Origin: a virus
Virus record (IMG/VR): IMGVR_UViG_3300045941_000468
Location: 1-56,053 of that record
DNA: 56,053 bases
Strand: one strand, 5' to 3'
This document shows positions 3,383 to 6,300 of the stretch, piece by piece (the first letter of the stretch is position 1; each line of letters opens with the position of its first letter). The position numbers and the translations under genes are program-made. Under the pieces are notes generated by a model, which was not told the DNA's origin, did no database searches, and worked only from the letters and a program-made list of their open reading frames with translations.

Positions 3383-6300
3383 ATGCCGCGCCTCCCGCAT
3401 CCGCCTGGGTGTCGCGGGTGCGCGCTCGACGAGCGCGGGGAGGGCTTCGCTCCGGCCGACGGCCCGCCGGGGAGCTGGCTGCTGCTGGTGGGCGAGGCGC
3501 TCGGCTACACCGAGATGCTGACCGGGCGCCCGTTCATGGGCGACGCCGGAGCGATGCTCAACCGGCTGCTCGGCCTGCTCGGGTGGAAGCGCGACGCCAT
3601 TCGGATCCACAACACGATCTCCTGCCACCCGCCGGGCGACTGGTTCGACGAGCGGGCGCCCTGGTACTACCCCGCGATGAACCACTGCCCGTACCTCGGG
3701 CAGACGCTGGCGGAGGGACCGCAGGTCGTGGTGCCGATGGGCATGAGCGCCATCCGGCGGGTCCTGAGGCTGGAGCACCGCAAGAAGGTCAAGGTCCAAG
3801 ACTTCCACGGCGCGATCCTGCGCGACCCCACCGATCGCTTCTGGGTCGTGCCGACCTATCACCCGTCGTTCTTGCAGCGCGGCGCCACGAACCTGATCGG
3901 CACCGTGCTGTGGGACCTGCGCCGGGCCGAGCAGGCGAGAGACCACGGCGCGCCCCCGCGGGAGCACTCGCTGGTGGTCGATCCGCCGGTCGAGTGGTTC
4001 CGGGCGTGGGTCGATCAGGTCGTCGCCGCCCGGCGGCAGGACCCCGGCGCCTACCCGATCAGCAGTGACGTCGAGACCCCGGACAAGGCGGGCGGGCGGG
4101 ACGAGGGGGAGATCTCCGCCGACGATGTGAGCTTCCAGCTGCTGCGGCACAACGTCAGCTGTCACACCGACGAGGGCGTGACGGTGCCGCACGCCGGACC
4201 CTACCTGGATGAACTCGCGCGGCTGTATGCGTCGCCGGGACACATCTGGATGTGGAACCGGGAGTACGACTTCATCCGGCAGGTGACCGCCGGGCTGCTG
4301 CGCGAGGAGGACTCGACGCGGGTGGTCGACCTGATGTGGCTCTGGCACTTCCTGCAGAGCGACCTGCCGCGCGGGCTCGGCTTCGTCGCGCCCTTCTACA
4401 GCGACTACGGCCCGTGGAAGCATCTGGCCGATGAGGACCCGGCGACCTACGGCGCGGCCGACGGGCTGCAGACCCACCGGGTCGGCTTCGGCATCATCCG
4501 CGACCTCATCAGCGAGCGGCGCTACGACATCGCGATGCGGCACACGCACCGGCTGCACACCGAGGTGCTCCGGCCTGCCCAGCTGGTGGGCGTCAAGGTC
4601 GACCGGCCGCGGCTGCTCCAGTTCAAGCAGGAGCTGATCGATAAGAGCCGCGAACGGCTGCAGACGCTGCAGGGGTGCGTGCCGGAGGCACTCGCCCCGC
4701 TGACCCCCAAGGCGGGCCTCCACCGGCCCCCAGCGGCCCATCTTCTCCACGTCAAGGCCTCCGCCTTTACCCGCCGCGGCGCCCCGCGCAAGGGCAAGCC
4801 TACGGCCGAGATTAAACAGGAGCTGTATGCCCGAGCCAGAGTCGTCGAGAAGCTCGTCCTCCGAGAGGTCCTCGTCTGTCACACCTGCGGAGCTAGAGAA
4901 GTTGCTAAACGCCATCGTTGCCCTCACACAGGCGACCCGGGGGCTCCACCTCGAACTGCTCAACTGGACCTGGCAGTGGCGACGGTCACCCGGTGGTTCT
5001 GGCAAGAGCCGTTCAACCCGGACAGCGTCCCGCAGGTCCTCAACTACATCAAGCACCGCAAGCACAAACCCGGCCGAGCCAAAAAATCAAAATCCGACGA
5101 GTCCACCAACCGAGAAACCTTAGAGCGGCTGGCGAGGACGACGGGGGATCCGTTCTACGCCGCGCTGCTCGACTACCGGGCGATCGGCAAGGTCAAGGGC
5201 ACGTATGTGGAAGGGACCGAGCGGCGGCTGGACGCCGAGGACCGGCTGCACCCGGTGCCGACCTTCAAGCCGTCCACGATGCGGCTGTCGTACACCAACC
5301 CGAACATCACGAATGTGGTGGCGGACAAGTCGGGCAAGGAGGGGCTGGCGGCGGGGTTCCGGCGCTGCATCGTCGCCAGCCCGGGGTGCCGGTTGCTGGA
5401 GGTCGACTTCGCGGCGATCGAGGCGGTCGAGACCGGCTGGTGCGCCAGGGACAGCGAGTACTACCGGCTGGCGAAGCTGGGCGTGCATGCGGCGCTGGTG
5501 ACGCACGTCCTCGGCCAGCCGTACGATCCGGCGGCGAGCGACGACGAGCTGCGGCCGATCTTCAAGCGGACGAAGAGCGAGCACCCCGACATCTACGAGC
5601 CGAGCAAGCGCTACATCCACGGGCGGGCCTACGGGCTGACGGTGCCGGGCATGGTGCTGCAGTTCCCGCACCTCTTCCCGTCGCATGCCGTGGCGGAGAA
5701 GTACGCGCGCATCTTCGAGTCGATGGCGCCGGGCGTGGCCCGCTGGCAGCACGAGACGCAGCAGAAGGCCTACACCCAGAAGTATCTCGGCGGGGCGGGC
5801 GATCACCCCTTCGCCTACAAGCACTGGTTCTGGAGCGTCTACAGCTACAAGCGGCTGTCGCAGACCCAGTACTACCGCCTGGTCGCCAAATACAAGAAGC
5901 TCGGGCAGGAGCCGCCCTGCGTCAACATCAACGGGCAGTGGTTCCGCGTCGGGCTGGGCGAGGACGGCAAGCGGGTGCTGGCGTTCTACCCCCAGAGCAT
6001 CAGCACCGGCGTGCTCAAGGAGGCGCTGCTGCGGCTGTTCGCCGAGCGCGACTCCCCGAGCTACATCGGCGACGCCTACTTCGGGCGGACGCCGCTCCGC
6101 GCGCCGGTCCACGACTCGATGCTGCTCGACATCCCCGTGCGCCAGTTCGATCGGGTGTTCGAGACGGTGTGCATGGAGATGCAGCGGCCGGTCATCGAGC
6201 AGCCGTGCCCGGCGGGGTGGGCGGGGCGGCACGGGGAGTATGTCGCGATCGGCGTGGCGGCGAAGGCGGGGCAGGACTGGGCGGCGATGGAGGACCTGGT

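Follow-up and report, generated by a model that had tools for sequence, protein, structure and literature searches.

Evidence for a selected +1-frame gene nested within a family A DNA polymerase gene of phages

Can one stretch of a phage DNA polymerase gene also encode a second protein in another reading frame? The question arises from IMG/VR virus record IMGVR_UViG_3300045941_000468 (here called the window, analyzed over its full 56,053 nucleotides, or 56 kb). A preliminary description of its sequence had proposed that a 98-codon reading frame with an AGGAG-CTGT-ATG start is overprinted on the polymerase gene. This open reading frame is present as described, with its ATG at 4827-4829 and in the +1 frame relative to the polymerase frame (Table 1). 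For the host gene, Pfam identified a UDG domain at residues 26-169 and a DNA_pol_A domain at residues 541-801 (8.1e-20), and PHROGs assigned it to PHROG 17 (DNA polymerase). Its predicted fold is Klenow-like, with phage G20c Pol I and Klenow as the best Foldseek matches (E 2.5e-17), while the 3'-5' exonuclease label is based on motifs read by eye. Upstream of the polymerase, a tyrosine-integrase-like gene (890-2131, PHROG 1) suggests that the window phage is temperate.

Table 1. Positions in the window of the polymerase gene, the nested reading frame and their parts
Feature	Position	Strand	Basis
UDG / 3'-5' exonuclease / family A DNA polymerase fusion (host gene), 1002 aa	3383..6391	+	Pfam, PHROG, Foldseek
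AGGAG Shine-Dalgarno-like site, 4 nt 5' of the ATG	4818..4822	+	Present in 17/17 ATG-bearing relatives
Overlapping +1-frame gene (probable), 98 aa, ATG to TAG	4827..5123	+	ATG and open frame kept in 17 genomes
Alternative-frame residues 1-19: Ser/Lys-rich N-terminal segment, synonymously constrained	4827..4883	+	Synonymous differences, composition
Zinc-ribbon motif CxxC...HxC of the polymerase (main frame), residues 499-513	4877..4921	+	Invariant Cys/His
Alternative-frame residues 20-53: predicted amphipathic helix, length differs between relatives	4884..4985	+	AlphaFold2, composition
Alternative-frame residues 54-98: predicted disordered basic Ser/Thr/Arg/Pro-rich tail	4986..5120	+	pLDDT, composition
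TAG stop made by polymerase Leu580 TTA-Glu581 GAG	5121..5123	+	Leu column ranking, codon table

The polymerase frame itself is certainly translated through the overlap, since it is uninterrupted there in all relatives and the zinc-ribbon residues C499, C502, H511 and C513 do not change among 22 homologs. The invariance of these residues in the main frame also rules out compensating frameshifts in the polymerase. The preliminary description had placed the nested frame in a linker before the polymerase core. In the structural model, however, this DNA encodes a predicted beta-hairpin (residues 486-499 and 528-541) bearing the zinc-ribbon loop, so that the segment is not a plain linker.

Relatives were collected by a protein scan of IMG/VR with the polymerase (25 loci, 46-81% identity), a profile scan, which added more distant relatives and one contig from a bacterial bin (L069), and a DNA scan for the start motif. 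The latter permitted either Tyr codon and returned 20 contigs, most of them already-known relatives and a few from other records. The same ATG column preceded by AGGAG-N4 was found in 17 phages including the window, and the polymerases of the other 16 are 58-81% identical to that of the window. An alternative ATG at this column requires Tyr482 to be encoded by TAT. All 17 genomes use TAT there, whereas it accounts for 20% of Tyr codons over these genes; among 24 well-populated Tyr columns, the next highest reaches 59% and the median is 17%. This comparison, like that of the Leu columns below, was run on the same sequences and thus retains shared ancestry. The conserved ATG is the only possible start (ATG, GTG or TTG) within the open stretch in 15 of the 17 genomes. 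The AGGAG arises from common Gln-Glu codons of the polymerase and is weak evidence taken alone, and its 4-nt spacing to the ATG is short.

Over polymerase residues 482-579, the +1 frame contains no stop codon in the 17 genomes, compared to 13.1 +/- 2.5 in local synonymous shuffles (5000 runs, minimum 5 stops; shared ancestry is not built into this null model). In the 11 relatives that lack the ATG, the same frame contains 21 stops in total. The openness in homologs that the preliminary description had named as a check is thus found wherever the ATG is found. Between residues 500 and 550 the +1 frame has 0 stops where 9.6 are expected, while the other four alternative frames show 34, 12, 15 and 37 stops against expectations of 13.1, 5.0, 4.6 and 25.8. 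This excess in four frames and absence in one tells a coding signal apart from an effect of base composition. In a sliding scan of the gene, depletion of +1 stops coincided with hydrophobic enrichment (z +14 to +17) only at residues 475-550. We do not take openness alone as proof of a gene, given that the same frame holds a 232-codon ORF downstream and that the window's own codon usage gives a probability of 0.17 for this stretch being open.

The end of the frame is also conserved in position, at polymerase residues 580-584 in 14 of the 17 genomes. In nine genomes the stop is made by TTA or CTA at Leu580 or Leu583. These two codons make up 4.6% of Leu codons, and Leu580 and Leu583 use them more often than any other of the 72 Leu columns.

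An inversion of third-position composition between the two frames, as noted in the preliminary description, is real. Over residues 482-536 of the window, GC at codon positions 1, 2 and 3 is 0.76, 0.55 and 0.56, compared to 0.68, 0.45 and 0.95 in the rest of the gene. All 17 ATG-bearing genomes share this pattern, with polymerase GC3 of 0.45-0.64 in the segment and 0.82-0.95 over the rest of the gene, and with GC of 0.68-0.87 at polymerase position 1, which is the third position of the alternative frame. GC3 there stays at 0.76-0.98 in ten of the 11 relatives without the ATG, one of them L005 (78% identity to the window); only L028 departs from this.

Synonymous differences in the polymerase frame were lower in ATG-bearing than in ATG-less relatives at residues 482-500 (0.277 vs. 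0.491) and at residues 536-560 (0.297 vs. 0.400) and were raised in the helix region at residues 500-536 (0.533). The expected reduction in synonymous change therefore holds for the first 18 or so codons and for part of the 3' end, but not for the fast-changing middle. From these comparisons, the nested start appears to be constrained in sequence and the middle only to stay open and helix-like.

We judged the composition of the putative product against the codon usage of the respective gene. Over its first 18 codons, Ser (0.43 vs. 0.26 expected) and Lys are in excess, and Trp and Cys are nearly missing (0.01 vs. 0.14). In the middle, Leu/Ile/Val/Met/Phe reach 0.32 where 0.09 is expected, Asp/Glu/Gln/Asn/Lys are raised, and Arg/Pro/Gly are lowered. 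This hydrophobic excess (z +17) occurs in the +1 frame nowhere else along the gene and is found in each of the 17 genomes taken alone (p <= 0.003). The hydrophobic residues are arranged amphipathically beyond what composition yields, by a modest margin over local shuffles (Fisher p = 6e-4, 21 sequences). ATG-less control relatives show none of the biases of the start or the middle. AlphaFold2 predicts the middle as a single helix (pLDDT about 90-94), with pLDDT of 46-60 in the tail. The tail is mostly dictated by conserved polymerase sequence, yet Arg is lowered and Lys and Pro are raised.

The predicted pI is 10.8-12. We dropped this basicity as a sign of nucleic-acid binding, as the +1 translations of relatives that lack the gene are just as rich in Arg and the reading frame itself largely accounts for it. 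The product gave only single weak matches and no convincing one in PHROGs, Pfam, PDB sequences or an annotated phage collection; those to a CoV nucleocapsid (0.03), bMG6 (0.065) and an SMC coil (0.024) were put down to noise from low-complexity or coiled sequence. No standalone copy of the nested gene was found in 19 phage records.

In a tree built without the overlap columns, the 17 ATG-bearing genomes sit in one 20-member clade (support 100/99) together with L005, L027 and L028. L005 and L027 have stops in the +1 frame. Stops in close relatives had been named beforehand as an observation that would speak against the gene; they do occur, but the ATG is missing from both genomes too and their GC3 is normal, and we therefore read them as probable losses. 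Being absent from these two phages, the nested gene would be dispensable. L028 has an open, helix-like +1 frame but lacks this ATG and has no clear start. Outside the clade, the signature is confined to one deep, separate trio (L037, L038 and L069), in which GC3 dips immediately ahead of the PFNP motif, the +1 frame is open and hydrophobic residues are in excess (p <= 0.003). Their starts are likely TTG or GTG, judging from the sequence; L038 and L069 carry Shine-Dalgarno-like sites containing GGGG, and the +1 product of L038 is a long heptad-like coil. Clade and trio fit two origins as well as a single ancient origin with several losses. A bolder reading, which we consider rather unlikely, is that the gene is ancient and recurrent in UDG-PolA phage replication modules and encodes a coiled-coil partner of the polymerase that it overlaps. 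It would then have been present in the ancestor, with shifting starts in the ATG clade with L028 and in L037/L038/L069, and repeated loss elsewhere.

The collected polymerase genes differ in further respects. L007 and L008 carry an in-frame insertion within the UDG domain (L008:4265-5035) that resembles a partial intein splicing domain (Pfam 2.5e-8, slightly under the curated cut-off), and L020 carries one after residue 292 (L020:4850-5605) with a weak LAGLIDADG match. In L038, L023, L032, L033, L037 and L069, the polymerase frame breaks off shortly before motif A, around window residue 665. It picks up about 1 kb further on in L038, where the interrupting stretch (L038:6280-7290) contains a 174-aa ORF. 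These breaks may mark a single conserved site occupied by self-splicing introns or by intervening genes. In L056, similarity to the polymerase changes from frame 2 to frame 3 immediately ahead of the PFNP motif, reflecting an insertion or else a genuinely split gene. Differences between the L007 and L008 polymerase genes fall in tight blocks, a sign that close phages have recombined into mosaics. Most of their overlap is free of differences (naive P about 1e-4), and this was put down to recombination and dropped as a sign of constraint; the block without differences extends from 785 to 1454, and mosaicism runs through the whole gene.

As far as sequence comparison reaches, the start, the open frame, the position of the stop and the frame-specific composition have been kept in 17 phages. 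Selection for an overlapping gene, as the preliminary description had suspected, is the only explanation we found that covers all four, and all are absent from the ATG-less relatives. We conclude that 4827-5123 is very probably a real, translated gene. Within the polymerase mRNA, ribosomes would start anew at AGGAG-N4-ATG and produce a soluble protein of about 100 residues with a Ser/Lys-rich start, an amphipathic helix that likely forms a coiled coil or binds a partner, and a basic disordered tail. The overlap would be tolerated because the polymerase segment beneath it varies in length and sequence. As to function, we tentatively suggest a small accessory or regulatory protein acting at the time of replication, perhaps a helical polymerase partner or a nucleic-acid binder, with its dose tied to that of the polymerase through the common mRNA.

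The main rival to this role accepts the gene and places its product outside replication, where it might counter host defence, help to take over the host or contribute to lysis; we regard this as a serious possibility, somewhat short of an even chance. The patchy loss in L005 and L027 fits an accessory function, and young overprinted viral proteins are frequently accessory or anti-host (PMC8227390). A holin-like function would call for a membrane segment, and the highest 19-residue hydropathy (0.55-1.61) shows no clear one, so that hydropathy lends no support to a transmembrane or holin role. No resemblance to lysis families or others was found in Pfam or PHROGs.

The A/T-rich third positions could slow translation where two domains meet, or belong to an RNA element or a DNA site, with the open frame as a side effect, and the segment does form a predicted hairpin near a domain boundary where GC3 falls sharply. 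A/T enrichment should add stops in every alternative frame, however, and the +1 frame alone does the reverse. The invariant ATG and the TTA/CTA stops are also left unexplained, and neither an Rfam match nor a promoter-like site was found within the overlap region. We consider this explanation very unlikely. Still less probable, in our view, is a programmed +1 frameshift at AGGAG-CTG-TAT, after which a UDG-exonuclease protein would end in a tail read from the +1 segment. Such shifting is known from prfB, where a Shine-Dalgarno-like sequence just 5' of the shift site stimulates it, and the distant lineage has no ATG at this site. Against it, the A site holds neither a stop nor a rare codon, there is no good re-pairing, and what is conserved is an ATG of the new frame, for which shifting has no need. 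Mere chance in a GC-rich gene, whose alternative frames are indeed often long and open, is hardly credible, as it would need 17 near-identical copies rather than these divergent genomes and leaves unexplained their TAT start, lack of stops, rare-codon termination and composition, which the ATG-less controls do not share. We therefore retain the selected overlapping gene.

Overprinting as such is a known phenomenon, and both hepadnaviruses and plant RNA viruses have examples that overlap part of a polymerase gene (PMC8227390). Across the hepadnavirus polymerase spacer, a second protein, preS, is encoded in another frame over a variable polymerase segment, and both products vary (PMC8227390). 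The arrangement here is alike in this respect, without a claim of homology. The hepadnavirus enzyme is a reverse transcriptase in a 3.2-kb genome about half of which is overlapped, whereas here a small, fully nested gene for an orphan protein lies in a family A polymerase gene on contigs of about 50-76 kb. Among plant viruses, the cucumovirus 2b protein is small, basic and helical and is generally made from a subgenomic RNA, overlapping the 3' end of 2a. The 2b of spinach latent virus overlies the zinc-finger domain of the 2a polymerase, and both products diverge fast (PMC8227390). The bromovirid 2b/2a pair thus likewise has a small protein read from a polymerase gene in a different frame, but in an RNA virus with another polymerase, while internal initiation in a phage mRNA is proposed here.

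Within phages, lambda Rz1 is a lysis lipoprotein nested in Rz. The Ms6 lysis gene nested inside lysA is in-frame (PMC3111421). Both resemble the present case in having a second product from an internal start in a phage gene, but the genes that hold them are not DNA polymerase genes. Across 12,609 surveyed viral genomes, +1 overlaps had a median length of 14 nt (PMC8903798), compared to 297 nt here. The host gene, with its UDG and PolA Pfam domains, compares with UDG-exonuclease-PolA phage fusions, and distant phage relatives match either end of it. In the annotated phage collection, none of 34 matching records covers 80% of the host gene. Our searches of open-licence papers turned up no description of an overprinted gene in a tailed-phage DNA polymerase.

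Overlapping genes are well documented in small viruses; here about 100 codons lie out of frame in the replicative polymerase gene of phages that measure about 50-76 kb. Such phages are not short of genome space, which argues for co-expression or the birth of a new gene over compression. A single synonymous TAT-to-TAC change would abolish the start and leave the polymerase protein unchanged, and L005 and L027, which lack the nested gene, offer a built-in natural experiment. The gene was probably missed by annotation because gene finders generally reject nested genes, and others may be hidden for the same reason.
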